Of a stretch of 64,000 bases of DNA, positions 44,700-64,000 are shown piece after piece. The notes below the pieces were generated by a model. It worked only from the letters and a program-made list of their open reading frames with translations. It was not told where the DNA came from and searched no databases. Source of the DNA: Actinomycetota bacterium (GTDB lineage Bacteria > Actinomycetota > Geothermincolia > Fen-727 > Anoxymicrobiaceae). Position 1 is the first letter of the stretch, and every line of letters begins with the position of its first letter. The stretch spans positions 17,755 through 81,754 of the forward strand of contig JAHIMR010000038.1 in assembly GCA_018896525.1 (NCBI GenBank), read 5' to 3'. A program made the position numbers and the translations under genes.

Positions 44700-44845
44700 T
44701 ATCGACATCGCTATAACACCTTACCCCACCTGTTGGCGGTCTTGTTTAACCGCCGTTTGTCTGACAGAAAGGGGTCAGGTGTTCTTGCCATCACGCTTCT
44801 GTTCCTGACATCTCTATAACACCTTACCCCACTTGTTGGCGATAA
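44700..44845. repeat. MITE-like dispersed repeat copies (…gctataacaccttaccccacttgttggc)
   Basis: Two half-copies; shared with 27655-27740 and 38155-38290. Confidence 0.65.
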
Positions 44846-45932
44846 TGTGTACCGCGGTAGCCTTGAAACGCAGGCCCACCATCTTCCCCTCGGCTATACC
44901 CATATCCTCCAGTGAGCGCCTGGTTATCAGCGCCACCACCGGGAACGGGCACAGGGCGGTCACCCGGGCCGTAGGTCCGGCGAGTTCCACCCCGACAACG
45001 CGCCCCTTGAACGCGTTTCTGCTGCTCGCCGGGGCCTCGATCTGCTCCGGCGGCACCAGCGTCACGTCCTCGGGCCTCAAGCCCGCGGTCACCCGTTCAC
45101 CGTTGCCGGCTTCACAGGTACTCTCCAGAAACTTTCCCTGGACCTCGACCCGCGTCAGCCCGTTATCGCTTCCGGTAACCACGCCCTTGTACAGGTTCTC
45201 CATCCCAACGAACAGGGCGGCGAACTCACTCGAGGGTCGGTGGAACACGTCGCCCGCCGCACCCTCCTGGACAATCCTCCCCTGATCGAGAATAACGATC
45301 CGGTCCCCGATACGCCCCGCCTCCTCCTGGTCGTGGGTCACGAAGATGGCACAGAGGCCATTCTCCTTCAGTATCCTCTTCACCTCACCCTGCAGAGCGG
45401 TACGGTTCAGGCGGTCGAGGCTGGCGAACGGTTCGTCAAGGAGGAGCAGTTCGGGCTCCACCACCAGGGCCCGGGCCAGGGCAACCCTCTGGGCCTCACC
45501 CCCCGACAGGGTGGAGACGTGTTTTTCCTCGAAGCCGGAAAGGCGCACCATCTCCAGGGCGGAGGCGACCCTCCCCTCTCTTTCGCTCGCCGGCACCTTA
45601 CGGACCTTCAGCCCGTAGGCCACGTTGTTCCTTACGGTGGTGGAGAACAGCAGGGGGTCCTGGAAGAGCATCGCCATCCTTCGGGAGACGGCGACCATTT
45701 CCTTTCCTCTAAGCCCCTGGACCTCCCCGCCCTCGAACAGGATCCTTCCCGCGGTTGGCGCCTCCAGGAGGTTCAGGATACGAAGGAGCACGCTCTTCCC
45801 GGCACCGCTCGGGCCCAGGCAGGCCAGTATCTCTCCGGGCCCAACCGAGACTGTCTCGATGTCAAGCACCGTTCGCTCCCCGTACTTTTTCCTCAAGCCG
45901 ATCGCTCTTATTACATCTTCCAACTTGCTCAA
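44814..45932 (-). CDS. Tungstate/molybdate ABC transporter ATP-binding protein with TOBE
   Basis: 'LGPSGAGKSVLLRILN', 'LSGGEAQRVALARALVVEPELLLLDEPFASLD', C-terminal TOBE; operon with permease and SBP. Confidence 0.93.
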   Translation of the reverse strand: MSKLEDVIRAIGLRKKYGERTVLDIETVSVGPGEILACLGPSGAGKSVLLRILNLLEAPTAGRILFEGGEVQGLRGKEMVAVSRRMAMLFQDPLLFSTTVRNNVAYGLKVRKVPASEREGRVASALEMVRLSGFEEKHVSTLSGGEAQRVALARALVVEPELLLLDEPFASLDRLNRTALQGEVKRILKENGLCAIFVTHDQEEAGRIGDRIVILDQGRIVQEGAAGDVFHRPSSEFAALFVGMENLYKGVVTGSDNGLTRVEVQGKFLESTCEAGNGERVTAGLRPEDVTLVPPEQIEAPASSRNAFKGRVVGVELAGPTARVTALCPFPVVALITRRSLEDMGIAEGKMVGLRFKATAVHIIANKWGKVL

Positions 45933-46615
45933 GCAGGGTATCCGGTTACCCTCTTCTCCACCTCCTCCCGTCCCTTGTCAGCCTGGAGCCGGGTAAGCAT
46001 CGCGTTGACCAGTACCGCCACAAGTATAAGGACCAGGCCCTCCGCGATGGCGTACTCATACTGCCCCTGCCGGGTCTGGAGAACGATATCGGTAGTGAGA
46101 ACCCGTGTGTAGCCCTTTATATTGCCTCCCACTATCATGACCGCTCCCACCTCGGCCAGGACCCTGCCCAGTCCCGCTATCAAGGCCGCCACCAGCCCGG
46201 CCCGCGCCTCCCTCATCTTCACCAGGACCGCCTGTAACCGGGTAGCGCCGAGACTCATCGCCTGGAGCCCCAACCGCGGGTCGACCCCCCGCATCGACGC
46301 GTGGGTGAAACCGGCCACTATCGGTGTCGCCAGTATCACCTGGACTATGACCATCGCGGTTGGGGTGTAGACCAACTCAAGAAACCCCAGCGGGCCGCTG
46401 CGGGCGATCACCAGGAACGTGAACAGGCCCACCACCACCGGGGGCAGCCCCATGAACGCGTGCACCATCGTAAGGGCGGCATTGCGCCCGCGGAAGGAGA
46501 ACTCCGAAAGCGCGACGCCTATTGGGATTCCTATAGCAGCGCCGATCAACGCGGCGGTACCCGACACCGCGAGGGAAAGGAACAGGACCCGGTAAAACTC
46601 CGGATCGAAGCTCAC
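45929..46615 (-). CDS. tupB: Tungstate/molybdate ABC transporter permease (TupB-like)
   Basis: 'FMGLPPVVVGLFTFLVIARSGPLGFLELVYTPTAMVIVQVILATPIV', 'RVLAEVGAVMIVGGNIKGYTRVLTTDI'. Confidence 0.93.
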   Translation of the reverse strand: MSFDPEFYRVLFLSLAVSGTAALIGAAIGIPIGVALSEFSFRGRNAALTMVHAFMGLPPVVVGLFTFLVIARSGPLGFLELVYTPTAMVIVQVILATPIVAGFTHASMRGVDPRLGLQAMSLGATRLQAVLVKMREARAGLVAALIAGLGRVLAEVGAVMIVGGNIKGYTRVLTTDIVLQTRQGQYEYAIAEGLVLILVAVLVNAMLTRLQADKGREEVEKRVTGYPA

Positions 46616-46711
46616 TATAAGGAGAAGCGCCTCCTTGAACCCGTTCAGTATTGTACCTATGCGATCACCGTCTTCCCCAATCCAATGGCGTGCTGCGCCC
46701 TCAAGGGGGAG

Positions 46712-47581
46712 TTAATCACCCGTGCCCCCGGTCTCCCCAATGGCGTTGGGGTGGAAGAGCACGGTGCCGTACTTCTCGTACGAACCAATCAACTCCTGTC
46801 CTTCATCACTTGTAAGGAACTCCACGAAGTCACCGGCCCCCTCCACGTTGAGATCGAGGTCCGGGTGCTTCTCCGGGTTAATCACTATGGCGCTGTACTG
46901 GTTGAACAGGGCCTTGTCACCCTCTACCACCGTAACCAGGTCAACTGTCTCCTTCTTGGAAAGATAGGTGGCGCGATCACTTAACGTGTACCCCTGTTTC
47001 TCGGCGGCCACAGTGAGGGTGTTGCCCATCCCCTGGCCGGTCTCCACGTACCACTGTTGCCAGGCGGGGTCCACCCCGGCCTCGGCCCATATCGTCTTCT
47101 CTTTCTTGTTGGTGCCCGAGTCGTCGCCCCGGCTGACAAAGGTGGAACCGGTCTCCGCTATCTTCCCCAGCGCGTCGGCGGCGCTCTTCTCTCCTTTTAT
47201 CCCCGCGGGGTCGGCCTCCGGACCCACGATGATAAAATCGTTGTACATGATCTCGACCCGCTCGAGGCCGTAACCGTCATCGACCAGTTTCTCCTCCGAG
47301 TCCTTGGCGTGGACCAGCAGGACGTCAGCGTCCCCCCGCTCCCCCATCTTTAGCGCCTCGCCGGTGCCAACGGCGATGGTCTTGACCGTTACCCCGTACT
47401 TCTTCTCGAAGTCAGGGATAATCAGGTCCAGTAGCCCCGAGTCCTGGGTGCTGGTAGTGGTGGCAAGGACGAAGGACTTCTTCGACTCCTCCTTCTTCTC
47501 ACCGCATCCCGCCAGCGCCGGCAGCGAGGCGGCCAGCATCAACATGACAGTAAACACAATGAGTTTCTTTCCCATGTCCAT
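46712..47581 (-). CDS. tupA: Tungstate/molybdate substrate-binding lipoprotein (TupA-like)
   Basis: Lipobox 'ASLPALAGCGEKKE'; 'LATTTSTQDSGLLDLIIPDFEKKYGVTVKTIAVGTGEALKMGERGDADVLLVHAKDSEEKLVDDGYG'; start at ATG 47581, ORF open to 47668. Confidence 0.94.
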   Translation of the reverse strand: MDMGKKLIVFTVMLMLAASLPALAGCGEKKEESKKSFVLATTTSTQDSGLLDLIIPDFEKKYGVTVKTIAVGTGEALKMGERGDADVLLVHAKDSEEKLVDDGYGLERVEIMYNDFIIVGPEADPAGIKGEKSAADALGKIAETGSTFVSRGDDSGTNKKEKTIWAEAGVDPAWQQWYVETGQGMGNTLTVAAEKQGYTLSDRATYLSKKETVDLVTVVEGDKALFNQYSAIVINPEKHPDLDLNVEGAGDFVEFLTSDEGQELIGSYEKYGTVLFHPNAIGETGGTGD

Positions 47582-47613
47582 AAAACCCCTTTCAACTATG
47601 AAGCCTCTTGCTC

Positions 47614-47643
47614 GACAAAAAACCTGCCTTCGGAAAGGCAGGT
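47614..47643 (-). terminator. Intrinsic terminator/attenuator in tupA 5' leader
   Basis: Minus strand ACCTGCCTT-TCCG-AAGGCAGGT followed by TTTTT, 33 nt upstream of tupA ATG. Confidence 0.75.
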
Positions 47644-47982
47644 CACTCTTTGTCCCTCTCCTTTCCAATCACGGGAGGCCCGCCGGTTTCCCACCGGACC
47701 CTATCGCCCTGGGGCCGTAGCTTATCGCTTTAGGCCCTTCGGGTCGGAGAACAGTATTAAGTTGTGTCGGGATTAAACCATGTACGGCAACCCGCGGTCA
47801 ACGGGCGGGCGGGGCGGGCGGGCACAAGCGCACCGTATACCGCCGCCCGAGACAGTACCGGCGGCGGCCACGTACGCCAGAGGCGCGGCTTGGAGATGTG
47901 CCCTTTACGGACGGACTTCTCCCGCGATGCCCCGGTCCCGATCGCCTCAATCGGCAGGCGATCCTCAATCAATCGGAGGTCG

Positions 47983-49113: not shown

Positions 49114-50214
49114 TCAGGCGCCGCGGCGGGCCGGGCGGCGGGCGGGCGGCGTGCTCGAGAGCTGCAGCCGGATTGGGGGCGGGCGGAACGCAATGACGAA
49201 CGCCACCAGGCCCGCTATCAGAAAGAACATCATCCAGAGCGAAAAGAAGTTTCTCCCGTAACTTGAAAGCGCCTCGTCAAATAGAGTGCCAATACTCAGC
49301 TTGAGCGGTATCACGCTATTGAACCGTACGTCCAGCATGAAGTACACTATGCGTCCGGCGCTTACGAAGAACATCGCGATCGCGGCCGCTATAAGGCCGA
49401 GTTTCCAGTTGAAATGACGTCCGGACCCAAACGCTACCGCCACCCCCACCGCGAAGCCGATGACCCATCCGAATATCCCCCGGTCCCAGTGCAGCCACCA
49501 GGCAAGCCCGGCGTAGGCGGCAGCGCTGAGAACGCCGGCCAGCAGCCCCCACAACACCCCTTTTATGTAAGACGGGTTTCTCGTCATTTCGCCGTCGTAA
49601 TCCATTGGGACCTGCATCGAAATGCGCTCTTCACCGGGCAGGTGTCGCTCTTTCACCGCGGCGTGCTTACCTTTGCCCTCCGGTGCCCGCTTCTCCTTGT
49701 CGACCGGCCCGGTGGGAAAACCCTCGGAGACCATAACCGCCTGCTGGCGATCCTCGGAGGACAGCGCCCTCCTCTTCTCACCCTCCGGTACCAGTGCCGG
49801 CTCGCCCGCAGTCCCGCCATCCGGCTCCTCCGGGGGTTGAAATCCCTCCTCCGGGTCACGCCTGGCCGCCCGGCGCGGCTCCTTGATATCACCCCAGAAC
49901 TCCTCCTTCTCCCGGGGGGAAATCCCCGGGGGAGGAGGCGGTGGCGCAACGGCCGCTTCCGGTGGCGCGGCAACCGGTTGCTCGGTGGGCTTCTTCAACT
50001 GCTTCTTCTTGACCTTCTCTTTTTTCTCCTTCTTCGCCTTGGCTTTCGGTTCCCGCGGACCGAGCTTGGAGGCGAAGCGCTCTATCTCCGCCTGGTGACA
50101 ATCAGGGCAGTAGTGTGACTCCCGCGTTTCCTGCACGCACTGGCGGCAGAAGCTCTGGCCACAGTTCATGCAGGTGAATGAGGCCTCCTGGCCGGGATGT
50201 CTCTTACACTCCAA
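49114..50214 (-). CDS. Zinc-finger (B-box-like) membrane protein
   Basis: 'CKRHPGQEASFTCMNCGQSFCRQCVQETRESHYCPDCH' then charged/Pro-rich linker and about 4 TM segments. Confidence 0.8.
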   Translation of the reverse strand: MECKRHPGQEASFTCMNCGQSFCRQCVQETRESHYCPDCHQAEIERFASKLGPREPKAKAKKEKKEKVKKKQLKKPTEQPVAAPPEAAVAPPPPPPGISPREKEEFWGDIKEPRRAARRDPEEGFQPPEEPDGGTAGEPALVPEGEKRRALSSEDRQQAVMVSEGFPTGPVDKEKRAPEGKGKHAAVKERHLPGEERISMQVPMDYDGEMTRNPSYIKGVLWGLLAGVLSAAAYAGLAWWLHWDRGIFGWVIGFAVGVAVAFGSGRHFNWKLGLIAAAIAMFFVSAGRIVYFMLDVRFNSVIPLKLSIGTLFDEALSSYGRNFFSLWMMFFLIAGLVAFVIAFRPPPIRLQLSSTPPARRPARRGA

Positions 50215-50287: not shown

Positions 50288-53200
50288 TCACCTGGCGCCG
50301 ATGGACCCGGTGCCACCCTGCCTGCCGTTCCAGTACATCGCCCTCTCGGCCATCACCGGCTCGGGCGTTGTTATCCTCACCGAGAAACTCGAGGCGGGAA
50401 CGTACTGGGCCGCGTCCAGGCTGGTCCTGCATCGCGGCGGCAATTCTACCTGAACCGGCACCACCGACCCGTCCTGGGTCATGAAAGTCACGGTCGCGGT
50501 CTGCGACTCCTCGCCCGGGTTGTCGATAAGCAGCCACGTTTCGAAACCGTAGTCGGTACACCCCTCGGCCAGGTACCAGGTCGTGCCCGGCCCCGGGGAC
50601 CCCACCGTACAGTGGCCGGCGCCGCGGTTGTTCCAGTACATCGCCCTCTCGCATACGACCGGCACATCGGAGGAGACCTGCGTCGAAACGTCGGCGATGC
50701 CCACCGCGGTCTGCAGGTTCACGGTGTGCCGTGTGTTGCCCCCCACTGTGTAGACCTTCTCCACCGTCTCTCCCCCGGACTCCCGGTAGGTGACGGTTAC
50801 CCTCGCCTCATCGTCCCCCGGGTTCCCGATGAGTAGCCAGGTTTCGAAGCCCCAATCGGTGGAGCCCTCCGACAGGTACCAGGTGTTCGATGGGGCCTTG
50901 CACCCGATGGTGCCGGTGCCGCAGTTGCGACCGCCGTAGTACATCGCGCGCTCGGCCACCACCCCTGGTTCCCCGGACCCGACGTGCACGCTGAACTCCC
51001 CCGGACCGACTTCATCGAGCGCGTCTACGGTCAACCGGGAGTGCGGCTCCAGAAGGTGCTTCGTCGTGTGGACACCTCCATCGTCGAACATGTACCTGAG
51101 AGTTACCTCCACCGGGTCGTCTCCCGGGTTCCCCACCAGGACGTACGTCTCGAACCCGTAGTCGGTGCACCCCTCGGCGAAGTACCAGTCGCGGGAGAGC
51201 GATGTCGTACCGATCGAACCGTGGCCTTCCACCCGGCCGTTCCAGTACATCGCCCTTTCGCATATCACTTCGTGGCCGGCCCTGACCTCCACCGAAATGT
51301 TGGCGCCGGGGACCTCCGCCGCAGCGTTCACGGTGGTACGGCTGTCCGCCGGCAGGTCGCAGGCGTAAGTTTTCGTCTCTCCGGTGTCGTCCATGAACGT
51401 GACGTGTGCCACCGTCGCCTCGCCGGCCGGATTCTGGATGAGTACCCACGTCTCGAAACCGTAGTCGGTGCACCCCTCGGCGAAGTACCATTCCTCCGAC
51501 GGGCGCGGAACCGTATGGTCGACGTACGCCGTAATCTCGTCCTGTCCCTCGCGTCCCACCTCGTCACAGGCACGGGCGGTTAATCGGCGCGCCCCGTCGA
51601 CCTCCGCGTCGGTGTCCCACTGACATTCGTACGGCGCCGTCTTGTCGGTACCAATCAGGTTGTCGTCCACCATGAACTCCATACGGTCAACCTTCTCGTC
51701 GCTCTGGGCCGTCGCCCTGACGGTCAGAAGGCCCGCGACCGCCGAGCTGTCGGCCGGCTCGGTTATCTTCACCACGGGGCCGCCCCCGGGCAGAACTGTA
51801 AACCCTACCGCGTTGGACGCGTGGCCGTTTACATTAGCGGTCAAATCGCCTGTGACCGCGCCTGCCGGTACCCGGACCTTAATCTCGCCATCGGACCAAG
51901 ACTGGTAATCGGAGCCGACCACACCATTGAACGACACGTAACTCGCGCCCAGTTCGTCCAGGAACCAGGAGCCCCTGACCTCCACTATATCCCCCGCGTG
52001 CGCTTCCGGCGGCGAAACCGATGCCACCGACGGTGTTTCGAGCAGCGAGAAGGTTCCGGTGTCGCTCTGGTGTCCCCCAACAGTCACGACAACCGTACCG
52101 CCGGCCGCGCCGCTCGGAACCTCGACCTGCAAGAGGTTATCGGACCAGTATCCGTATGAGGCGACTTCAGCGCCCCCCACCGTCACCTTGCTTCCCCCCT
52201 GCTCGCCGGCGAAGTTCGACCCCCAGATGTAGATGAAGTCGCCCCTGTACGCCTGCTCCGGCTCAACCGTGTCCATGCCGGGCCGTTTCTCCCATGTGAC
52301 GCTCCACTGGTCAACCGTCGGGGTCACGTTAGTGTCGGTGGTGCTCAGCCGGCCCCGGAGCCTCAGGCCGGGGTGCTCCAGGGGGTCGATACCGGATATG
52401 TCACGCGGCGGGCTCTCCATATCCTCATAGCCGGCTATCACCACCCCCGACTCGTCCGTGAGTTCGATGCTCGCCTCGGTGCCCGGTGGGGACTCATCTT
52501 TGATGAACGTGACCTGGTCCCAGGCGAAGCGATAATCGGGGTCAAACCGGACAAGGCGGCACTCCCCTGTGGTGCCAAGGTATAGCTTGCCGAGATCATC
52601 GGTTGTGGCGGCGGTGACGCCGGAGTTCTGATAAGTCACGGGTCCCTTGTCGGTGAACCCCCGGCCCGGCACGAACCGGAACAGGCACCCCGAGTTCCCG
52701 GCGCCCCCGTAGAGGCCGCCTCCCGCGGTCGCAAGAGAAAGAACGGGCCCTTCTCCCTGGTAGGGGAACTCCTCCAGGTTGTCAAACGATTGGCTCGCGG
52801 GATCATAGGAGACCAGCTTCCCGCCCGGGCCGGTCCCGAAGTAGACCTTGCCGTCTCCCACCGACATCGAGTGCGCGCTGTGCTCATCGGAGAACTCAGG
52901 ATTGGTACAGTCCCAAACAATCCCCTGCGTCAAGGGATCGTACTTGATGAATCGGGCCGACGATGACATGGAACCACCGGGTGAGACCCCGGTCCCCCCG
53001 TATATCCACCCGTCCGGCCCCAGGGCCATTGACAGAAGCCTCCCCTGGACGCAGTCGCCTATGCCGGTGAACTCCTCCTTCAACGGGTCGTACCTCACCA
53101 GGCGCGCGGGGTCGCTTCCCTTGTCACCGGTCCCGATGTAAATCTCCCCGCCGTTGCCCTCGATCAACGAGAAAATCCCCTTGGCGTACTCAAGTGGCAC

Positions 53201-56200
53201 ACCGAGATCATCGACACGGAGCGAAACCGGGTCGAAGCGGAAAAGGCGTGCATCCTCCCCACCTTCGTCGTTCCCGGTACCACCATAGATGAACCCATCG
53301 TCACACGCCGCAAGGGAGAGTATCTTCTTGTGTCCCACCAGGGCGACCCCGCAGTCGTACACCTCGCCGGTCGCGGCATGGTATGCGAACAGGCGGGCGT
53401 CTTCCACACTCTCGTCGTTCGCGGTGCCACCGAAAACCACCTTGGCATCCCCGGGGTAGGCGCAAAGCGCGCCCACCGAATCATGACCCGCAAGGGATTC
53501 GGGCATGCCGAGTTCCATCAAGCCCGGCGTGATATCCACCGAGGTGCCGCAGGGACCAACCCCTGTCTTGTAGGGGTCCAGGCGGAAAACGTGGCCGTCC
53601 GCGCTCGTTCCCCCGAAAAGCACGCCGGCCTGGGTGAGCGCCGTGCTGCCCACCAATCTCTCTCCCGGGATGGGCATGCACACATCCCGAAAAGCACCGA
53701 GGGCGGGGTCGTAGGTTACAACGTGACCGTCCGCGGTTTCCCGCGTTCCAAACCAGATGACGCCATCCGGCGCGGCGGTGACGGCGGTCGCCAAACAAGT
53801 CCCGGAGAAGGGCTTCTCCAGGAGATCGTAGCCCGGTCCCGTCACGTCGTACGAGAAGAAATAACCGTTGCCTAAACCCCCGTATATCTTCTGGCCGGAA
53901 TAACAGAGCGAAGCTATGCTCATGTTGAAACGCTCGCCCTCGACCGGTGGTTCGCCGAGGTCCGTAAAATCACCGGGGGCTCCCTCGTACCTGAAGAGAT
54001 GGGCCGATTCATACGTGCCGACCTTCCATGTGCCCCCGTATATCTTGTCGTCATGGCCACAGAGGACCAGGGCCAGTACCCCCTCCCCCTCCACCGGGAC
54101 CTCCAGGTCCGTCTTGACGCCGCCATCGGGGTCGTAGGAGAAAAGGCGTCCCTCGTCCGGCTCGGAAGCGCAGTTGCTGGTGGCTCCGTATATCAGGTAA
54201 TCGGGCTCCGGACCCTCCGCGAGAGCGGAGACCCACCAGTTTTCGTCGGGCGCCGGCGGCCGTCCCAGGTCCGCGAACTCTCCCGTGGCGGGGTCGTACT
54301 CAAACAGCCTCCCGCCCTGGGGATTATGGAACTCCGACGGGTCAGCGAGACCGCCGGTGCCGGCGTATGTCGCGCCGTACACGGTTCCATCGTTAGCGAC
54401 GATTATGTCCTCTATCTCCCGTTCGCCGTTTACGGGTCGGCCCCTGTCCCACACCTGGTTGGTGGCGGGGTCGATTATGAGGAAGTGCGCCTGCCGGTAG
54501 GTCCCGGCGTACACGAGGTCCACGTTGGGGTCATAGACCATGCAGAACAACATCACCTGCTTGTGGACCACCCATCCCCGGTCAGCGAGGAACGCGTCCT
54601 CGTGGGAGAAGAGCTTCCCCCCGGTGGTCCCCCCGAAGACGTGGTCGTTGATGTGGCGAAGGGACCTGACGCCGGTGGACCCCGGTACGGAGCCGAGATC
54701 CCGAAGCACGCCGTCGTACATCCAGAGGTTACCGCCGGAAGTGCCGCACAGTACACCCGCGTCACCGTCGGCAAGGCTCCTGACGGGACTGCCGCAACTT
54801 TCCAGGTCGTGGAAAGAACCGTCAAACGAGAACAGGTTTCCCCCCTCCAGGCCAAGGTACACCACCCCACCCTCAACCGCGAGGGCGTTGATGGCCGTGC
54901 CGTCCGCGAAGCCGTGGCCATGTTCCTCTAGCAGCGAACCGTCCCAGGAGTACAGGTTGCCGTCGGCGGCCGCGATGAACACCTTGCCGTCGTTCCAGGC
55001 GAGGTCGTTTATGGAAACGCCCAACGGCAGTGTATCCAGAAGACTGAAGGAGGAGCCGCTGAAGGAGTGAAGTTCGCCGTCCTCCAACCCCAGGTATACG
55101 GTCGAATCATGGGCCAGCACCGCCCTGATGGGACTGCCGCCGGGTGATCCCAGGGGTTCGAGAGCGTCCTGGTACCTGTAGAGGTGACCATCCTGGCAAC
55201 CGAGATATACTTTCCCCGAAGCGGAATCAATGTCGTTGATGGCGTCCGTAGTGGAACCCAGGGGGTTATAAGTGGCCGGCCCGGCATAGGTGTAGAGCTC
55301 CCCGGCCTGGTTCGCGAGGTAGATCGTCTTTGAGCAATATGTCACGCCGGTAATCGCCGACGGAGGTTCCTCCGGGGAACCGTGGCCCTCGAAACCGGAC
55401 TGGCAGAAAAGGTGGCCCTCGCCGGAACCGTCGTCCCCTGTGCCCCCGTAGACCCTGCCCTCAGCCCCCGGGGAAAGCGCGTTTATCGGCGCTCCACCGG
55501 AGTTGGCCGGTACGCCCTGGTCGCTGAAACCCGCTCCACTTATCACGTGAATGTAAAGGTGTCCGTCATTGGAGCCTATGAACAGGTCGGTACCGGAGAC
55601 CGCCAGCGCGTTGATGGCGTTGGAGCCGGACGGCTGTTCCAGGTCGTTGAACGTGCCCGGCGGGTCTCCTAACGTGTAGCTGTACAGGTGGCCGTCCTCC
55701 GAGCCGATATAGAGCTCCGTCCCTGAAACCTCGAGGGCCAGAACTGCATCAGCGGCACCGCTGGGCTGGAGAAGGTCGTTGAATCCTTCAAGGTCGGTAT
55801 ATGAGAAAACGTGGCCGTTGGACGTACCCCCGTAAACAACGCCCCCGCTAAAGGCAAGCGCCAGTATGCCGCCTCCGCCGGGGGCCGCGTCCAGATCCTG
55901 GCACGGCCCCTGTACGGGGTCTCCCACGCCGTCGTATGGCTCGAAGGAGAAAAGGTGGCCGTCGGGGTCAGTACCCCCGTAGACCAGCGACGATCCGTCC
56001 GTCGTGAGCGCAGTCACCCGCAGCTCGTCTCCTGCCGGCAGCATCGGCTGCCCCCTGCTGTTGGAGACGCCCCAGTGGACCGGCCCCTGGTAACCCTCCT
56101 GGTATAGCTCCTCGGGGTTGTGCTCCACCAGGTGACCCCTGTCGCCGGTCCCGCAGTAGACGTTGGAGTTGGAGTCGCCGAGGGCCGTCCCAAGAACGGC

Positions 56201-56482
56201 ATACACCGTACTCTCCCCGGGGACGGCCACGCCAAGGTCTATGGGATCGGACTCCCGGAGTTTCAGCTTGCCGCCGCCGACCCTGGTGTCACTGAACTCC
56301 CTGATGCCCTCGTTGGAATCAAACGTATCCGACCACGACTCGTCGCCACGAACCGGGAACGCCCCCACCGGTGGGGCCAGCAACGCGAGCCCCAGCCACA
56401 GGATCAAGGCGATGATAACCACGGCGGACACAGTCTTTCTCAAGCTCCGCCTTATCCGCTTGTAGCATCGTTGACTGGTCAT
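50288..56482 (-). CDS. Giant secreted beta-propeller-like / IPT-TIG / Ig-like protein with four C-terminal WYFAEGCTDYGFETW modules
   Basis: 2064 aa; signal peptide; dozens of 'VYGGTxxxGHLFSYDP' blades; two TIG domains; Ig-like 'ITEPADSSAVAGLLTVRATAQSDEKVDRMEF'; four about 101-aa 'WYFAEG[CS]TDxGFET' modules. Confidence 0.88.
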   Translation of the reverse strand: MTSQRCYKRIRRSLRKTVSAVVIIALILWLGLALLAPPVGAFPVRGDESWSDTFDSNEGIREFSDTRVGGGKLKLRESDPIDLGVAVPGESTVYAVLGTALGDSNSNVYCGTGDRGHLVEHNPEELYQEGYQGPVHWGVSNSRGQPMLPAGDELRVTALTTDGSSLVYGGTDPDGHLFSFEPYDGVGDPVQGPCQDLDAAPGGGGILALAFSGGVVYGGTSNGHVFSYTDLEGFNDLLQPSGAADAVLALEVSGTELYIGSEDGHLYSYTLGDPPGTFNDLEQPSGSNAINALAVSGTDLFIGSNDGHLYIHVISGAGFSDQGVPANSGGAPINALSPGAEGRVYGGTGDDGSGEGHLFCQSGFEGHGSPEEPPSAITGVTYCSKTIYLANQAGELYTYAGPATYNPLGSTTDAINDIDSASGKVYLGCQDGHLYRYQDALEPLGSPGGSPIRAVLAHDSTVYLGLEDGELHSFSGSSFSLLDTLPLGVSINDLAWNDGKVFIAAADGNLYSWDGSLLEEHGHGFADGTAINALAVEGGVVYLGLEGGNLFSFDGSFHDLESCGSPVRSLADGDAGVLCGTSGGNLWMYDGVLRDLGSVPGSTGVRSLRHINDHVFGGTTGGKLFSHEDAFLADRGWVVHKQVMLFCMVYDPNVDLVYAGTYRQAHFLIIDPATNQVWDRGRPVNGEREIEDIIVANDGTVYGATYAGTGGLADPSEFHNPQGGRLFEYDPATGEFADLGRPPAPDENWWVSALAEGPEPDYLIYGATSNCASEPDEGRLFSYDPDGGVKTDLEVPVEGEGVLALVLCGHDDKIYGGTWKVGTYESAHLFRYEGAPGDFTDLGEPPVEGERFNMSIASLCYSGQKIYGGLGNGYFFSYDVTGPGYDLLEKPFSGTCLATAVTAAPDGVIWFGTRETADGHVVTYDPALGAFRDVCMPIPGERLVGSTALTQAGVLFGGTSADGHVFRLDPYKTGVGPCGTSVDITPGLMELGMPESLAGHDSVGALCAYPGDAKVVFGGTANDESVEDARLFAYHAATGEVYDCGVALVGHKKILSLAACDDGFIYGGTGNDEGGEDARLFRFDPVSLRVDDLGVPLEYAKGIFSLIEGNGGEIYIGTGDKGSDPARLVRYDPLKEEFTGIGDCVQGRLLSMALGPDGWIYGGTGVSPGGSMSSSARFIKYDPLTQGIVWDCTNPEFSDEHSAHSMSVGDGKVYFGTGPGGKLVSYDPASQSFDNLEEFPYQGEGPVLSLATAGGGLYGGAGNSGCLFRFVPGRGFTDKGPVTYQNSGVTAATTDDLGKLYLGTTGECRLVRFDPDYRFAWDQVTFIKDESPPGTEASIELTDESGVVIAGYEDMESPPRDISGIDPLEHPGLRLRGRLSTTDTNVTPTVDQWSVTWEKRPGMDTVEPEQAYRGDFIYIWGSNFAGEQGGSKVTVGGAEVASYGYWSDNLLQVEVPSGAAGGTVVVTVGGHQSDTGTFSLLETPSVASVSPPEAHAGDIVEVRGSWFLDELGASYVSFNGVVGSDYQSWSDGEIKVRVPAGAVTGDLTANVNGHASNAVGFTVLPGGGPVVKITEPADSSAVAGLLTVRATAQSDEKVDRMEFMVDDNLIGTDKTAPYECQWDTDAEVDGARRLTARACDEVGREGQDEITAYVDHTVPRPSEEWYFAEGCTDYGFETWVLIQNPAGEATVAHVTFMDDTGETKTYACDLPADSRTTVNAAAEVPGANISVEVRAGHEVICERAMYWNGRVEGHGSIGTTSLSRDWYFAEGCTDYGFETYVLVGNPGDDPVEVTLRYMFDDGGVHTTKHLLEPHSRLTVDALDEVGPGEFSVHVGSGEPGVVAERAMYYGGRNCGTGTIGCKAPSNTWYLSEGSTDWGFETWLLIGNPGDDEARVTVTYRESGGETVEKVYTVGGNTRHTVNLQTAVGIADVSTQVSSDVPVVCERAMYWNNRGAGHCTVGSPGPGTTWYLAEGCTDYGFETWLLIDNPGEESQTATVTFMTQDGSVVPVQVELPPRCRTSLDAAQYVPASSFSVRITTPEPVMAERAMYWNGRQGGTGSIGAR

Positions 56483-56658: not shown

Positions 56659-59175
56659 TCAGGGGTATGGAGGCATATTCATCATGACCGCCTCGTGGAA
56701 CACCCCAAACATGTACGGGGAACTCAAGCTCGAGTTGTCCGACCACAGTTTCATGACAACCCAGGAGAGAGCGTTGTTCGCCATGGGTTGCGCGTTGAGT
56801 TGATTTCTCAAGAAGGTCAGCGCGGCATTGTCGGAAAGCGCTATCATGAGCTGCCGCGACATCTCGATCGCGCCCGGGTCCGCCATGGCATACGCGAGGT
56901 TCTGCAATCCCGTAGGGCTGGCATCAAGGGCGGTCACCACATCGTTGATGAACCTCTTACCGTTCGCGCTGTTCAGGGCGGTCGCGGCCGTAGCCGGGTT
57001 CATGCCCCCCATCAGGTCCGCCAGGAAACCCTCGTTGTTGTTTATTATGTAAGCGATAACGTCCGGATCGAGACCCGCCGGCGGCGGCTTGGTGAGGTCG
57101 TAGAACATCCCAACGGCCGGGGGCCCTTCAGGAGGATAGCTGAGCTTGGTCGCGTTCCTCATGGCAATATTGAGCGCTCCGGCGTCCAGGTGGGAGATGA
57201 GGCCGGTTATGAACGCCTGGTTGTTGTTGACCACGTTCGCCAGGACAGCCGGGTCTATGCCGATGGGGAAAGGCTCCATGATGGCCAGGGTGAACTCGGG
57301 GTTCGCGTTCTGTGCCGCCGCCATCACCGCCGGGTCCATGCCCACCGAGGGGTCGAGCATCTCGTTCAGGAAAGGCTGGGCCGCCGGGTCATTGATGGCG
57401 TTGGTTAAGACCGTCGAGTCGAGATTGCTGAGCAGGCCGCTCACGAACGAGCCGTTTTGGTTTACCACGTAGGCCATCACTACCGGGTCAAGGTGCTGCA
57501 TGAGCTCGCTTGTGGAACCGCTGGTGTTATTCATTACGCCGGCTATGACCTGGGGGTTAAGGCAGGATACCAGGTTTGTTACGAACGAGACGTTCTCGTT
57601 GATAGCCCGAGCGGTGTTGGCGGGGTCGAGCTTGGGCAGGAGCTTTGTCATGAACGCTTCGTTGTTGTTCACGATCCCCGCTATCACCTGCGGGTCCAGC
57701 TTGGCCACCAGTTTCTTCATGAAATCCGGGTCCGCGTTCATCCCCGCGGCCAGCGCGTCGGGGTCCAGCTTGCCCACGAGCTGGGTTATGAACGCACCGT
57801 TGGCGTTGACTATCCCCGCTATCACCGCCGGGTCCAGGTTGGCCACCAACTGGGCGGTCCAGGCCCAGGTGCTGTCCGTCATCTGGTTCAGCTTGTCTAT
57901 GTCCAGGTACCCCAGCAGGGACTTTAAGAAGCCGGGGTTTTCGTTTATGGCGGTTGCCGCCCCCACGGTGCTCATGTTGCCCATGAGCCCGGCCAGGAAC
58001 GTCTCGTTGGCGTTGATGGCGCCCGCTATGGGGCCCGGAGAGAGGATGGCCACCAGGTCGTTCGCCATCTTGGCGTTGTTGGTCACCGCCCCCAGGAACT
58101 CCAGCGACAGGTTGTTTAAGACCCCGCTTATCAGCGGGGAGACGTTGTTGACTATGCCCGCTATCGCCGACGGGTCCAGGTACCCGATAAGCCGGGAGGT
58201 GAAGTCGGTGGTGGCCGACATGTTGGCGGCGACCCCCGCCGGGCTCATCTTGGAGATGAACCGGGTGAGGAACGCCTGGTTGTTGGCTATGGCGGCGATG
58301 AAGTCGGAGCTTATGTTCATGGCCACGTCGTAGGTGAACCCAGCGGTCTGCTGGCTGGTGCGGGCCAGGTCGTCAGGGTTGAGCCTTGCCACCACCTGGG
58401 TGAGGAACGGCCCGTTGGAGTTCACTACCTGCGCTATCACACCGGGGTCGAGCTGACCCATGAGCTCACCTATGAAGGTGGTGTTGTCGGCCAGCCCCGC
58501 GCTCAGGGCCACCGGGTCCAGCTTGCCGATGAGATCGGCTATCCAGGAGCCGTTGTTGTTGACTATCCCCGCTATCGCGGACGGGTCGAGGTATCCCACC
58601 AGGGAGGCGGTCCACTCGGGGTTGGCGTTGACCGCCTGCCCCACCACCTCGTAGTCGGTGTACGCTACGAGCTGGGTAAGGAACTCCCCGTTGGCGTTAA
58701 CCGCTCCCGCTATCACCTCGGGGTCGAGCTCTCCCACCAGCGCGGCCAGGAACGGCCCGGCCTGGTTGATGATGGAGGCGGTCACCTTGGGGTCGGTGTT
58801 GGCCATCATGGCCGAGAGGAACTTCTCGTTTGCGTTTATCGCTTCCGACACCACCGAGGCGTCCACGTAGGAGAGCATCTCGCTCACCCACTCGGGGTTC
58901 TCGTTTAATGCCTTGGCGGTGCCGGCCGGGTCCAGGTAGGCCATCAGCTCGACCAGGAACTCCGGGTTGTCGCTTATGGCCTCTCCTATCGCCTTGGGGT
59001 CCAGGGCGCCTATCATGGCGCTGGTGCTCTCCACGTCGGAGCTCATCTTGCCGATCAGCGGCCCCAGCGGGCTGCGGGTGGGTATGAACCCCACCGCGGC
59101 CACCACCGCGGTACCGACCAGCAGGAATATCACTACTCCGTTTATCAGTATCTGGAGACTTCGGTTATATATCAT
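56659..59175 (-). CDS. Membrane-anchored 23-aa-repeat alpha-solenoid-like protein A (unrecognised family)
   Basis: N-terminal TM (residues about 9-31) then about 28 repeats, e.g. LDPSAIAGIVNNNGSWIADLIGK / LDPGVIAQVVNSNGPFLTQVVAR. Confidence 0.92.
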   Translation of the reverse strand: MIYNRSLQILINGVVIFLLVGTAVVAAVGFIPTRSPLGPLIGKMSSDVESTSAMIGALDPKAIGEAISDNPEFLVELMAYLDPAGTAKALNENPEWVSEMLSYVDASVVSEAINANEKFLSAMMANTDPKVTASIINQAGPFLAALVGELDPEVIAGAVNANGEFLTQLVAYTDYEVVGQAVNANPEWTASLVGYLDPSAIAGIVNNNGSWIADLIGKLDPVALSAGLADNTTFIGELMGQLDPGVIAQVVNSNGPFLTQVVARLNPDDLARTSQQTAGFTYDVAMNISSDFIAAIANNQAFLTRFISKMSPAGVAANMSATTDFTSRLIGYLDPSAIAGIVNNVSPLISGVLNNLSLEFLGAVTNNAKMANDLVAILSPGPIAGAINANETFLAGLMGNMSTVGAATAINENPGFLKSLLGYLDIDKLNQMTDSTWAWTAQLVANLDPAVIAGIVNANGAFITQLVGKLDPDALAAGMNADPDFMKKLVAKLDPQVIAGIVNNNEAFMTKLLPKLDPANTARAINENVSFVTNLVSCLNPQVIAGVMNNTSGSTSELMQHLDPVVMAYVVNQNGSFVSGLLSNLDSTVLTNAINDPAAQPFLNEMLDPSVGMDPAVMAAAQNANPEFTLAIMEPFPIGIDPAVLANVVNNNQAFITGLISHLDAGALNIAMRNATKLSYPPEGPPAVGMFYDLTKPPPAGLDPDVIAYIINNNEGFLADLMGGMNPATAATALNSANGKRFINDVVTALDASPTGLQNLAYAMADPGAIEMSRQLMIALSDNAALTFLRNQLNAQPMANNALSWVVMKLWSDNSSLSSPYMFGVFHEAVMMNMPPYP

Positions 59176-59223
59176 CTTATCGTCTCCCGGCCTTTATCTC
59201 CTCAGCCATGATCACTAATACGG

Positions 59224-61737
59224 TCACCATCTATGTGGATTCCCGGCACTATTGGCCTTCCGGGCGTCCACAACCTGGGACCAGCCCCAACTGTCGAGGT
59301 CCCAGCCCAAAATGGATACTCTCGAACATCCGTACATGATAGTGCGTCGCAACACGTTCTGGTTCGGATTCCCCGCCGGTCCGGCAAGCGCGTTTATGAT
59401 CACCTGGGGGTTCAGCCCGGCGAGGGTGGAGTTGTTCCAGTACAGGAGGTCCGAGATGAAGTTCCCGCTGCTGGTCAACAGGTCCACGGTCCCGCTTGGA
59501 CTCATGTATCCCATGATCTTGGTGATGAAATCTCTTCCCTCGTTGGACTCCAGTACATCGATTATGATTTGTGGATCAATGCCGTCGGGAGGCTCGGCGA
59601 ACATTGCCTCCATCATCCCCGGATCCTGGCTCATCGCCTGGCCGATAACGTCACCATCCAGCAGCCCCACCAGGTCCTTGAGCATGGCCTGAATCGTCCC
59701 GTTATCGTTGATCATCGAGGTAAGGTCCTCGTTGTTACTGTGCAACATCAGCTCCGTTAGGAACGCGCCATTGAGGTTTATGGCGTTCGCCACTCCCTGC
59801 GGGTCGAGGTGCCCGACCAGTTCTGAAATGACCGACCCGTTGGTGCTGATCAGGTTGGCCACCATGTACGGGTCGAGCGCGCCCGGATGCATCAGGCGCT
59901 CACTGAAGTCGCTATCATTGCCGGGGGCCGCGGCTGATTCCGCGTCCATGTTGGCGATGAGTCCGTTCATGAACGCCTGGTTGTTGTTTATCGCGTAGGT
60001 CAGTACGTCCGGCTTGATCCCCGGCTGGACCCCGGGGGTGCCGGGATCCGCGTCCTCGTGCAACAGAAGGGTGAGGAACTGCTTGTTGGCGTTCAACGCC
60101 GCCGCGGTGTTCTGGGGGTTGAGCCTGTTCATCAGGTCGGTCATGAACGCCCCGTTGGCGTTCACCACCGACGCGATGACCGCCGGGTTGAGATCTCCCA
60201 TCATGTCGCTCATCATCTCCGGGTTGGCGTTCATCGCGTTGGCCAGCACCGTGGTGTTGAGGTGCTTCACCAGGTTGGTGAGGAACGTCCCGTTGGAGTT
60301 TATCACCCCGGCGATGACCGTTGTATTCAGGTACTTCATTATATCCGACGTCGACTCCGGGTTGGCGTTCATCGCCGCCGCCAGTACCGCGGGGTCGAGC
60401 TTGCTGATGAGCGCGGTCAGAAACCCGCTGGATGCGTTTATGCTGTCCGCGGCGTTCGCGGCGGACATCGCGTTCGTCAGGTCGGCGATCCACCCGGTGT
60501 TGTCGTTCACGATGGACGCGATCGCCTGTGGGTCCAGGTGGCCTATCAGCCCGGTCATCATCTGGGTGTTTGCGTTCATCGCGTTAGCGATTATCACCGG
60601 GTTCAACCGGGCTATTACGTCTATCAGGTACTGCTCGTTCTTTAGCACGTTTGCGATGATCTCGGGGTTGGTGCTGTCGCTCATGGCCGTTACGAAACTT
60701 ATGTTGTTGTTTAGGACGCCCGCGATGACCGTCGGGTCCAGGGCGTTTATGAGCGCCGCCGCAAACCCACCCACCTGGTTAACCAGGCCACCGATGGAGG
60801 ACGGCGAGAGCTTGTCCATCAACTTGGCGGTCATCGCCTGGTTGTTGGCCATCGCGCTGATGAGCTCGGGAGAAAGGCGCTCGAGAACGCCGGTTACCGT
60901 CGTGGCGCTGCCGTTCAGGATACCGGCGATGACTATCGGGTCCAGCCGGTTCACCAGGTCCACCGTGAACTGCTGGTCCTGGCTCATCGCCTTGGCTACC
61001 AGGCCCGGGTCCAGGCTACCCACCAGGTCGGCCAGGAACGGCCCGTTGGCGTTGATGATGCTGGCCAGGACGCCGACGTTCAGGTAGTTCATGGTCTGGG
61101 CGCTCGTCTCCGCGTTGGCGTTGATCGCGCTGGCCAGCACGTCGGTGGAGAGGTTACCCATCAGCTCGGTCATGAACGTCTCGTTGGCGCTGATCGCGTC
61201 CGCTATCACCCTGGGGTCGAGGAGCGCGGTCACCTTGTTGTTGAAGTCCATGCTCCCTTCCATGCTGGCGGCCAGCGTCTTGGGATCCAGTTCCCCGATG
61301 AGCTCCGTTATGAAATCACCGTTTGCGTTTACCGCCGACGCCACTACCGCCGGGTCCAGGTAATCCAGCAGTTGGACGATGAAATCCACGTTGTCGTTCA
61401 TCCCCGAGCTCATCGCCACCGGATCGAGGTATCCGATCAGCTCGGTAATCCACTCCCCGTTGTTGTTCACGGCCTCGGCCACTATCTCGGGGTCGAGCTC
61501 CTCCAGCAACTCGGACATCATGCCGGGGTCGGCGTTCATCGCGTAGGCCAGGACCTTCGGGTCGAGGGTGGACAGCATGCCCGATATCATGCCTTTCTGG
61601 CTTGCCATCTTTCCCATCAAAATACCCAGAGGGCTTTTCATCGGGAGTACCATTGTGGCGCCCAGGATTACGGTGGCAAGCAGCATCAGCAGCACTACCA
61701 CGTTCACTACTCCCTGCATTCCTCTCGATGTCAACAT
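59224..61737 (-). CDS. Membrane-anchored 23-aa-repeat alpha-solenoid-like protein B (paralog of A)
   Basis: N-terminal TM, repeat 1 begins at residue 58 exactly as in A; repeats e.g. LNTTVLANAMNANPEMMSDMMGD / LNPAVIASVVNANGAFMTDLMNR. Confidence 0.92.
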   Translation of the reverse strand: MLTSRGMQGVVNVVVLLMLLATVILGATMVLPMKSPLGILMGKMASQKGMISGMLSTLDPKVLAYAMNADPGMMSELLEELDPEIVAEAVNNNGEWITELIGYLDPVAMSSGMNDNVDFIVQLLDYLDPAVVASAVNANGDFITELIGELDPKTLAASMEGSMDFNNKVTALLDPRVIADAISANETFMTELMGNLSTDVLASAINANAETSAQTMNYLNVGVLASIINANGPFLADLVGSLDPGLVAKAMSQDQQFTVDLVNRLDPIVIAGILNGSATTVTGVLERLSPELISAMANNQAMTAKLMDKLSPSSIGGLVNQVGGFAAALINALDPTVIAGVLNNNISFVTAMSDSTNPEIIANVLKNEQYLIDVIARLNPVIIANAMNANTQMMTGLIGHLDPQAIASIVNDNTGWIADLTNAMSAANAADSINASSGFLTALISKLDPAVLAAAMNANPESTSDIMKYLNTTVIAGVINSNGTFLTNLVKHLNTTVLANAMNANPEMMSDMMGDLNPAVIASVVNANGAFMTDLMNRLNPQNTAAALNANKQFLTLLLHEDADPGTPGVQPGIKPDVLTYAINNNQAFMNGLIANMDAESAAAPGNDSDFSERLMHPGALDPYMVANLISTNGSVISELVGHLDPQGVANAINLNGAFLTELMLHSNNEDLTSMINDNGTIQAMLKDLVGLLDGDVIGQAMSQDPGMMEAMFAEPPDGIDPQIIIDVLESNEGRDFITKIMGYMSPSGTVDLLTSSGNFISDLLYWNNSTLAGLNPQVIINALAGPAGNPNQNVLRRTIMYGCSRVSILGWDLDSWGWSQVVDARKANSAGNPHRW

Positions 61738-61779
61738 CCTATCCGCTCCTCAAGCATTTTCACGTCGGGAAAACTCCTG

Positions 61780-64000
61780 TCAAGGCCTGTGCGATGGACC
61801 CGGGACCGCGTGTGACGTCCATACCCATGAATCGGATGTCGTCCAACCACCTAAATACCAGGGTAGCTCTGCAAGACCCTTGCACTTAAAGGCTATGTGC
61901 GTCATCCAGTGATTTTCATGTTTCTTCATGGTTTCTGTGAGAACGGTCGTATCCAGTACTGTAAGCAACTGCGGCAGCAGCGTGGGGTTGTTGTTTATGG
62001 CGGCCTGAACGATGGACGCGTCGAGGTTGGCAAGGAGCTGCCCCGTCATCTCCGGGTGAGCGTTCATGGCATTCGCCAGGACCTGTGCATCCAGCCCGCC
62101 GGCCCCCAGCAGATCGAATAACAAGCCGCCGGGATACCCGGAAACGTTCGGCTGGTTGACCACATCGGCCATGACCGCCGGATCGTTGGTGTTCATGAAG
62201 TCGGCCAGGAAGGCGCCGTTGGCGTTTATGGCGTTGGCGAGTACGGGCAATGCGCCCGCCGCGTATACGGCCTCGAGCAAATCCTCCATGAACTCCGGGC
62301 GCTGGTGGTTTATATCCGCCATCTGCGCCGCGTCCATGTTGGCAACCATGATTCGTATGAACTCGGGGTTCACGTTGATGGCGGAGGCGATATGTGAGGT
62401 GTCGATTGTGCTCAGGATACCCACCAGGAAAGACTCGTTTTCGTTGATAGCCCCACCGATGACGTCCTCTTCGAGGTTGTTCATGAGTCCGGTCATGAAA
62501 GCGGTGCTCCCCTCGCTGGCCTGAACCAGGACTTTCGGGTCCAGGTACTTGACCAGGTTCTTGACGAACTCCTTGTTGGCGTTCACAACCGCCGCCACCG
62601 CCGACGGGGAGAGGTAGGTCAGCATCTTGGTGGTCATGTTAGGATCGGAGTTCATGGCCCCGGCTATGACTCTCGCGTCCAGGTACTTCAAGAGTTTCGT
62701 CAGAAACGCCCCGTTAGAGTTGATTATCGACGCGGTGACCGACGGATCGCTCGCCGCCATGACGCCGCTGATAAAGCTCTGGTTTCCGTTCACCACACCG
62801 GCCAGAACCTTCGGGTCCAGCTTGGTGACCAGTTGCGTAAGGAAGGCGCCGTTGGCGTTGATGATCTTTGCGCTCACCTGGGGGTCCATCTTCCCCATTA
62901 TCTTCTGGAGGAACGCGCCGCTGTCGTTTACCACGCCGGCGATTACGTCCGGGCTGAGATTCTGGAGAAGCTCCTGTGTCGCCTGCGGCGCCGCGTCCAT
63001 CGCCCTCGCTATTACCGACGGGTCCAGGTCCCGGATCAGGGAGTTGATGAACGCCACGTTGTTGTTTATTATTCCCGCGGTTATCGCCGGGTCGGAAACC
63101 GACATCACCTTGGTGAGGAACTCCTGGTTGTTCACGATAGAGGCGACGAAGTCCGGTGACACGCCGGCCACTACATCGGCCAGGAACTGTTCGTTATCAT
63201 CCATGCTGCCGGTCATCAACGACGGGTCCATATGCTGAACCAGTGATGTCAGGAACGCTCCGTTGGCGTTCAGCGCCCCGGCGATTGCGTTGGGGTTCAA
63301 GGCCCCTACAACCCTCAGCATGAAGCCCTGGTTGTTTATGATGTCAGCCGCCACCGAGGGGTCCATGGAGTCCATCAACCTGGTCACGGTGCCGGCGTTG
63401 CCGTTGAGGATGTTGGCGAGCACGTTCACGTCGAGGCGGCCTACCAGGCTCGCTATCCAATCACCGTTGGTGTTGACGGCATTGGCAATGGCATCAGGGT
63501 TTGAATTTTGCATTGCCGCCAGCACGAACGCCTCGTTGGCGTTGATGGCGTTAGCGAGCACCCCCGCGTCGAGCCTGCCTACGAGCGCGGACAGAAACTC
63601 GCCGTTTTCATTTATCATCATCGCGCTGTTCGCCGGGTCCATGTAACCCATGACAGCGGTCAGGAACGGCCCGTTCTCGTTTATGACGTCGGCCATCACA
63701 ACCGGCGACAGATACGATATGAGGTTACCGATGAAGACGCCGTTCTCGTTCACGACGTACGCCACGACCTGCGGGTCCAGGTAGTTCATGAGGTCGCTGG
63801 TCAGCTCGGTGTTGTCGTTAATCAGGCGCCCCAGCATGGCGGGGTCGAGGTGCCCGATAAGGTCCGCGATCACGTCCCCGTTCTCGTTGATGGGAATCGC
63901 CAGCGACTTCGCCTCGAGCTCCGCCACCATCTTCGCCGTCATCTCGGAGTTCTTGTTCATCGCTTCGGCGATGATCTTGGCCGGCAGCGCGGCCACGAGC
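61780..64000 (-). CDS. 23-aa-repeat alpha-solenoid-like protein C (paralog), N-terminus beyond right window edge
   Basis: Open frame reaches the window end; the GTG at 63996 used in the ORF track lies inside a repeat (LVAALPAKIIAEAMNKNSEMTAKMVAE). Confidence 0.88.
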   Translation of the reverse strand, partial: LVAALPAKIIAEAMNKNSEMTAKMVAELEAKSLAIPINENGDVIADLIGHLDPAMLGRLINDNTELTSDLMNYLDPQVVAYVVNENGVFIGNLISYLSPVVMADVINENGPFLTAVMGYMDPANSAMMINENGEFLSALVGRLDAGVLANAINANEAFVLAAMQNSNPDAIANAVNTNGDWIASLVGRLDVNVLANILNGNAGTVTRLMDSMDPSVAADIINNQGFMLRVVGALNPNAIAGALNANGAFLTSLVQHMDPSLMTGSMDDNEQFLADVVAGVSPDFVASIVNNQEFLTKVMSVSDPAITAGIINNNVAFINSLIRDLDPSVIARAMDAAPQATQELLQNLSPDVIAGVVNDSGAFLQKIMGKMDPQVSAKIINANGAFLTQLVTKLDPKVLAGVVNGNQSFISGVMAASDPSVTASIINSNGAFLTKLLKYLDARVIAGAMNSDPNMTTKMLTYLSPSAVAAVVNANKEFVKNLVKYLDPKVLVQASEGSTAFMTGLMNNLEEDVIGGAINENESFLVGILSTIDTSHIASAINVNPEFIRIMVANMDAAQMADINHQRPEFMEDLLEAVYAAGALPVLANAINANGAFLADFMNTNDPAVMADVVNQPNVSGYPGGLLFDLLGAGGLDAQVLANAMNAHPEMTGQLLANLDASIVQAAINNNPTLLPQLLTVLDTTVLTETMKKHENHWMTHIAFKCKGLAELPWYLGGWTTSDSWVWTSHAVPGPSHRP

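Follow-up and report, generated by a model that had tools for sequence, protein, structure and literature searches.

The window, meaning the whole stretch of 64,000 nucleotides analysed, contains a gene for a long repetitive protein adjoining an array of solenoid-repeat genes, and this locus raises the question of what the four similar modules at the C-terminus of the protein are, what they do, and whether they tie it to its neighbours. The gene is an ORF of 2064 aa with an ATG start, located, like all its domains, on the minus strand (50288-56482). The layout described in the initial annotation, a propeller/TIG/Ig protein ending in four modules of about 101 aa, was recovered with Pfam, profiles and the translation. 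Residues 1-42 (56357..56482) represent an N-terminal hydrophobic segment, signal-peptide-like according to the translation and a hydropathy script. Propeller-blade repeats, mostly of about 40 residues, are present between residues 167 and 1292 (52607..55984); an iterated blade profile recognised about 21 of them, so that the repeats claimed earlier are real, but their number is nearer two dozen than the many dozens implied. The N-terminal part of the protein matches designed ‘Cake’ beta-propellers in PDB (E 5.8e-21). Two TIG/IPT domains were found, namely, residues 1405-1479 (52046..52270; the best stretch for Pfam PF01833) and approximately residues 1484-1560 (51803..52033; a second PF01833 stretch and an NCBIfam stretch at 1494-1551), as well as an Ig-like Big_7 domain at residues 1569-1636 (51575..51778; PF17957, E 1.2e-17). 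The four modules, delimited by profile, Pfam and fold, occupy residues 1665-1765 (51188..51490), 1766-1867 (50882..51187), 1868-1968 (50579..50881) and 1969-2064 (50291..50578); the last interval reaches the stop codon, with the module itself stopping one residue before the C-terminus. Neither a C-terminal hydrophobic segment nor an LPxTG motif is visible in the protein, as had been stated.

Sequence profile, Pfam and fold all place the modules in the ASRT/ASRAH superfamily, whose fold is an eight-stranded beta-sandwich. The likeness to DUF5719, as originally suggested, was borne out: residues 1834-2048 of the window protein match this family (PF18986) with E 4.7e-14 and 52.7 bits against a cut-off of 26.2, and PF18986 was matched by all 81 of 81 non-redundant four-module tails, 19 of which matched the ASRT Pfam family (best E 3.3e-12). 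A profile of the 81 tails, searched against PDB, found TM1070 (1nc7) with E 7.3e-6 and Anabaena ASRT with E 0.002. The fold computed with AlphaFold2 for the 410-residue tail of the window protein has pLDDT 96.9 and pTM 0.94, and single modules match 1nc7 and ASRT (2ii7/2iia) in Foldseek with probability 1.00 and target TM 0.63-0.81. IL-12 and complement, also among the high-ranking Foldseek matches, were discarded for low probability and TM near 0.1. Asn at the end of strand 2 (N20) is present in 99% of modules, as in the ASRT/ASRAH superfamily, and the module start reads WY in the consensus, fitting the superfamily Trp at the start of strand 1; in one subfamily, the fourth module has F in place of this Trp. 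The SHExxC ligand-pocket signature of the ASRT-like family proper is not conserved in the modules, the aligned residues being of the FETxxL type. Membership in the superfamily was to be expected, because ASRT, the amidase-linked tetrads of Chloroflexi and an actinobacterial surface lipoprotein had already been united as ASRAH (De Souza, Iyer and Aravind 2009, PMC2739507). According to that paper, ASRAH members occurring alone assemble as tetramers, the dimer interface forms part of the wall of their pockets, and the domains are predicted to bind sugars or other small molecules. A literature search returned no paper containing ‘DUF5719’ and none with ‘Candidatus Solincola’.

Exactly four module equivalents were counted in 51 of the 59 complete module-bearing ORFs of the genome to which the window belongs; the ORFs were gathered with a one-module query, so the sample is unbiased towards four. 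Of the remaining eight ORFs, three derive from a single gene with a broken frame and together amount to about four modules, and another is a gene fragment close to the end of a contig; the last four are real exceptions with one to three modules and count against a ring-like arrangement. Apparent totals of five or six modules in L126, L137, L147 and L146 are actually four modules interrupted by inserts or by a permutation. For 237 of 324 modules, the nearest counterpart in a different protein was the one at the corresponding position in its tail; therefore, the four modules are inherited together as a single unit. A propeller homologue in genome G020 (L193:1268-5581) has only two modules and near-identical duplicated Invasin_D3-like and ASRAH segments, which represent either a recent duplication or an assembly effect.

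Among the 110 four-module tails with a real C-terminus, the strand-1 motif WYFAEG was found after module 4 in 25, a share inflated by the use of a permuted tail as the query, and it is absent from module 1 in all 25. The motif is located in module 1 in 77 of the 85 other tails under a strict pattern, the eight misses being truncated loci or variant spellings; the either-or pattern is unaffected by the choice of query. In the AlphaFold2 model of a permuted tail (pLDDT 95.6, pTM 0.93), the last strand (412-417) is formed, with pLDDT of about 97. A second permutation site lies at about module position 61, where L126, L147 and L137 contain half a module, three whole modules and the other half. Judging from these sequences, the module unit is circularly permuted in nature at two sites. 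Three natural versions of the putative ring, opened at different points, would be an unusual record of an oligomer becoming one chain.

In the three proteins with the second site (L126:3731-6136, L147:4008-6413 and L137:3403-6891), the permuted ring is apparently inserted in the middle of a glycosidase-like barrel, with flanks reading ‘...NYELLLAG / IATICDGVAVHPYDY...’. L126 and L147, which lie on separate contigs, are closely related paralogues. The first part of the split barrel gave a weak GH42 match (E 0.006), below the cut-off of that family. Since the ring interrupts the apparent barrel, both of its ends must exit at one loop.

Coupling between neighbouring modules was computed for Glu5 of module i and Arg51 of module i+1, taken cyclically. 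Over 117 tails, both residues were kept in 437 pairs and lost together in 29, and two pairs were discordant; no joint loss was seen in these tails when the two residues were paired within the same module, with i+2 or with i-1. The joint losses are located at the 4-to-1 interface in 28 cases and at the 1-to-2 interface in one (L095). For the 4-to-1 interface in the 81-tail set, the corresponding counts are 52/27/2 (Fisher 1.8e-19, a P-value that overstates independence, as the sequences are related), and independent joint losses are few, at least three (a large subfamily, L148 and L095). The subfamily with an altered 4-to-1 interface comprises about 27 tails, e.g., L121, L131, L160 and L162, and has FYLPDG in module 4, Gln/Asp in module 1 and, in 23 of 27, a TIGGYSD-like C-terminus. 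The contig of L095 is labelled as a PVC group bacterium and encodes a tetrad tail typical of the actinobacterial class, which points to mis-binning or transfer.

The tail is read as a ring because the count is constant, the modules are circularly permuted and the residue coupling is cyclic. On this reading, the C-terminal 400 residues would fold as a single domain, in which four ASRAH beta-sandwich modules of one chain close into a ring with pseudo-four-fold symmetry. Neighbours would be coupled via Glu5 of one module and Arg51 of the following one, with module 4 closing on module 1, and such a ring would be the covalently fused counterpart of the ASRT/TM1070 tetramer. On the same three grounds, the linear beta-sandwich stalk proposed in the initial annotation is probably wrong. 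An open, extended stalk or spacer resembling Ig or Rib repeats would suit tandem beta-sandwich modules placed behind TIG and Ig domains, a common stalk layout, and a tetra-tandem adhesin stalk occurs among the weak Foldseek matches (probability 0.60, TM 0.12). However, it offers no reason for exactly four units, for a circular permutation with the missing strand at the far end or for the coupling of module 4 to module 1, and the pTM of 0.94 for the tail model suggests fixed packing; a stalk is considered very unlikely. The best explanation of the whole, which we hold to be probable, is a single-chain closed ring of four modules, multiplied on exported cargo and acting as an envelope-binding anchor. 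DUF5719, a Pfam family of unknown function, would thereby become a structural unit with a testable shape and a likely job.

The ASRT/TM1070 family (PF07100; PDB 2II7, 2IIA, 1NC7) has in common with the modules the beta-sandwich fold, the nearly invariant Asn after strand 2 and the aromatic residue starting strand 1. Its native state, according to PMC2739507, is a tetramer of single domains, whereas here four domains are fused, exported and attached to cargo, and the SHExxC pocket residues are replaced. The actinobacterial surface lipoprotein, the third ASRAH family of De Souza, Iyer and Aravind (2009), shares the superfamily, export and an actinobacterial host with the proteins considered here and, by our reading, probably represents the same Pfam family and forms the bulk of DUF5719. 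PMC2739507 describes it as a predicted lipoprotein with two ASRAH domains, encoded next to genes for WhiB and a glycosyltransferase; the proteins studied here, in contrast, carry tetrads, number dozens per genome, have a lipobox-like site in only one of 53 and bear varied cargo. The tetrads of the second ASRAH family in Chloroflexi likewise consist of four ASRAH domains in an exported protein, and tetramer formation was already suggested for them in PMC2739507. They always occur with an amidase domain, whereas the present rings are found with many cargo types and show natural circular permutations, which are not reported in the text consulted. An Amidase_3 protein with modules is also present in this dataset (L136:3-1124).

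A point missed in the initial annotation is that the module is not confined to this gene: the DUF5719 module occurs at least 150 times in the same genome, in more than 50 proteins. One tetrad query gave 34-128 matches per genome within the class, and DUF5719 gave 0-4 matches per genome outside it in a phylum-wide sample of 199 genomes; among the genomes sampled, the expansion is confined to the Geothermincolia-like class. The closest named relatives given by the genome scan, which include Candidatus Solincola daggyaiensis and fen_727, are Actinomycetota MAGs and point to this class for the genome of the window. Cargo domains include subtilase, C39 peptidase, FG-GAP, several propeller types, TIG, NlpC/P60, malectin, metallophosphatase and beta-helix. 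The tetrad is C-terminal in 44 of the 51 cases in the genome and N-terminal or internal in seven, with N-terminal rings on PGA_cap, M23 and PD40 proteins. In this class, copies of the ring would have been added to dozens of exported proteins whose functions are unrelated.

An N-terminal hydrophobic segment, signal-like by the hydropathy script only, was found in 49 of the 53 tail proteins of the genome, a C-terminal hydrophobic segment in one and a lipobox-like site in one, while LPxTG was found in none of the 53. No match to sortase (PF04203) or to SLH (PF00395) was obtained in this genome, a fragmented MAG of 140 contigs, for which such absences weigh less than for a finished genome. Sortase anchoring of the tail proteins was rejected on the counts of LPxTG and hydrophobic ends and on the PF04203 result, and SLH anchoring on the PF00395 result. 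The presence of the ring on more than 50 different secreted proteins suggests a shared way to hold proteins at the cell surface, and a general envelope-docking module, probably glycan-binding, would be the simplest account. The ring would bind a common envelope polymer, most likely a glycan, via pockets at or near the module interfaces, and, once bound, could keep its cargo on the cell surface with no need for sortase or SLH. The attachment role put forward in the initial annotation is plausible in view of the signal-like N-termini and the diverse exported cargo, though not in the form of a stalk. Given that the modules do not retain the SHExxC signature of ASRT, the ligand may be other than a sugar.

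In outline, the ring would work like the SLH, sortase and type IX C-terminal domain systems, in which one shared module or signal brings many unrelated exported proteins to the surface; these systems have no sequence relation to the ring. A sorting or export signal for a dedicated secretion machine, of the kind represented by the type IX C-terminal domain, would account for the diverse cargo and for the predominantly C-terminal tetrads. However, the type IX domain is strictly C-terminal, whereas seven of the 51 tetrads are N-terminal or internal, some lying inside a catalytic domain; moreover, the domain is 400 residues long, and a signal-like N-terminus of its own is present in most cargo, so an export signal seems clearly improbable. 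The ring could also be a domain for capture or sensing of sugars or other small molecules, with cargo enzymes acting on the catch and no anchoring involved. The sugar binding predicted for ASRAH domains and their partly interface-walled pockets (PMC2739507) are in line with this, as are the fusions to an apparent glycosidase, M23 and PGA_cap proteins. Much of the cargo (propeller, FG-GAP, subtilase, C39 peptidase) is not glycan-specific, however, and more than 50 copies fit a shared anchor better; ligand capture is regarded as rather unlikely. Returning to the docking role, a wider proposal, to which we give slightly less than an even chance, is that this uncultured actinobacterial class uses a circularly permutable single-chain ring, with its own envelope ligand, as a general docking domain replacing sortase and S-layer anchors, and that in one subfamily the change is restricted to the 4-to-1 interface, so that three sites of the ring are equal and the fourth differs. 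If the docking role is true, it accounts for the way in which dozens of exported proteins are retained throughout the class, and the ring could serve as a sequence tag for listing the surface proteome of the class.

The neighbourhood at 56659-63999 comprises three minus-strand solenoid genes of about 840 aa, built of 23-aa repeats. The first, of 838 aa (56659..59175), lies directly upstream of the propeller gene, the second, of 837 aa, at 59224..61737, and the third, at 61780..63999, is cut by the end of contig C4, of 81754 bases, where the window, at C4:17755-81754, also ends. The array is conserved across seven families of the class; for the solenoid protein, no PDB match and no trusted Pfam match were obtained. 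Homologues of the propeller region (E < 1e-13) were found in eight genomes of the class. In all seven decidable genomes (G000, G002, G005, G007, G020, G023 and G024), a solenoid gene is immediately followed downstream by the homologue on the same strand, after about 10-400 bases; in the eighth, the 3956-base contig carrying the homologue (G021:C94) ends too soon for the arrangement to be judged. The joint cell-surface system with the solenoid operon, as originally proposed, is consistent with this gene linkage, the synteny in relatives being present where it could be judged. A module occurring at least 150 times in the genome does not, by itself, tie the window protein to the solenoids. A joint propeller-solenoid system is plausible as an accessory of a wider solenoid locus, of which the tail is not the defining part.

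Most solenoid triads or loci in the class have no adjoining propeller gene (e.g., in G003, G009, G010, G011, G013, G016, G017, G019 and G028). In the families f5 and f6, a four-module-tailed gene of about 940-970 aa lies directly upstream of the solenoid array (L071, L072, L073, L074, L075, L076, L077, L078 and L080); the three scanned proteins of this type (L071, L074 and L078) are all subtilases (S8), two of them with Big_7. Such flanking by tailed proteins in several families, with the propeller gene downstream or the tetrad-tailed gene upstream, would fit a tail specific to the solenoid system, in which the ring docks on solenoid proteins. At least 50 tailed proteins elsewhere in the genome and the many solenoid loci lacking a propeller gene speak against this, and we consider it extremely doubtful. 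With the ring as a general envelope anchor, the window protein would instead have its long multi-propeller/TIG/Ig arm held beside the products of the co-directional solenoid genes. In the solenoid-propeller intergenic region, no terminator or sigma-70 site stands out, and a single transcript is neither proved nor excluded.

Downstream of the propeller gene, the window encodes a 366-aa protein with a B-box-like zinc-finger N-terminus and membrane segments (49114-50214). At 44814-47668 lies a cluster of ABC transporter genes that includes one for a TupA-like tungstate-binding protein, scored at 239 bits where the equivalog cut-off is 400.
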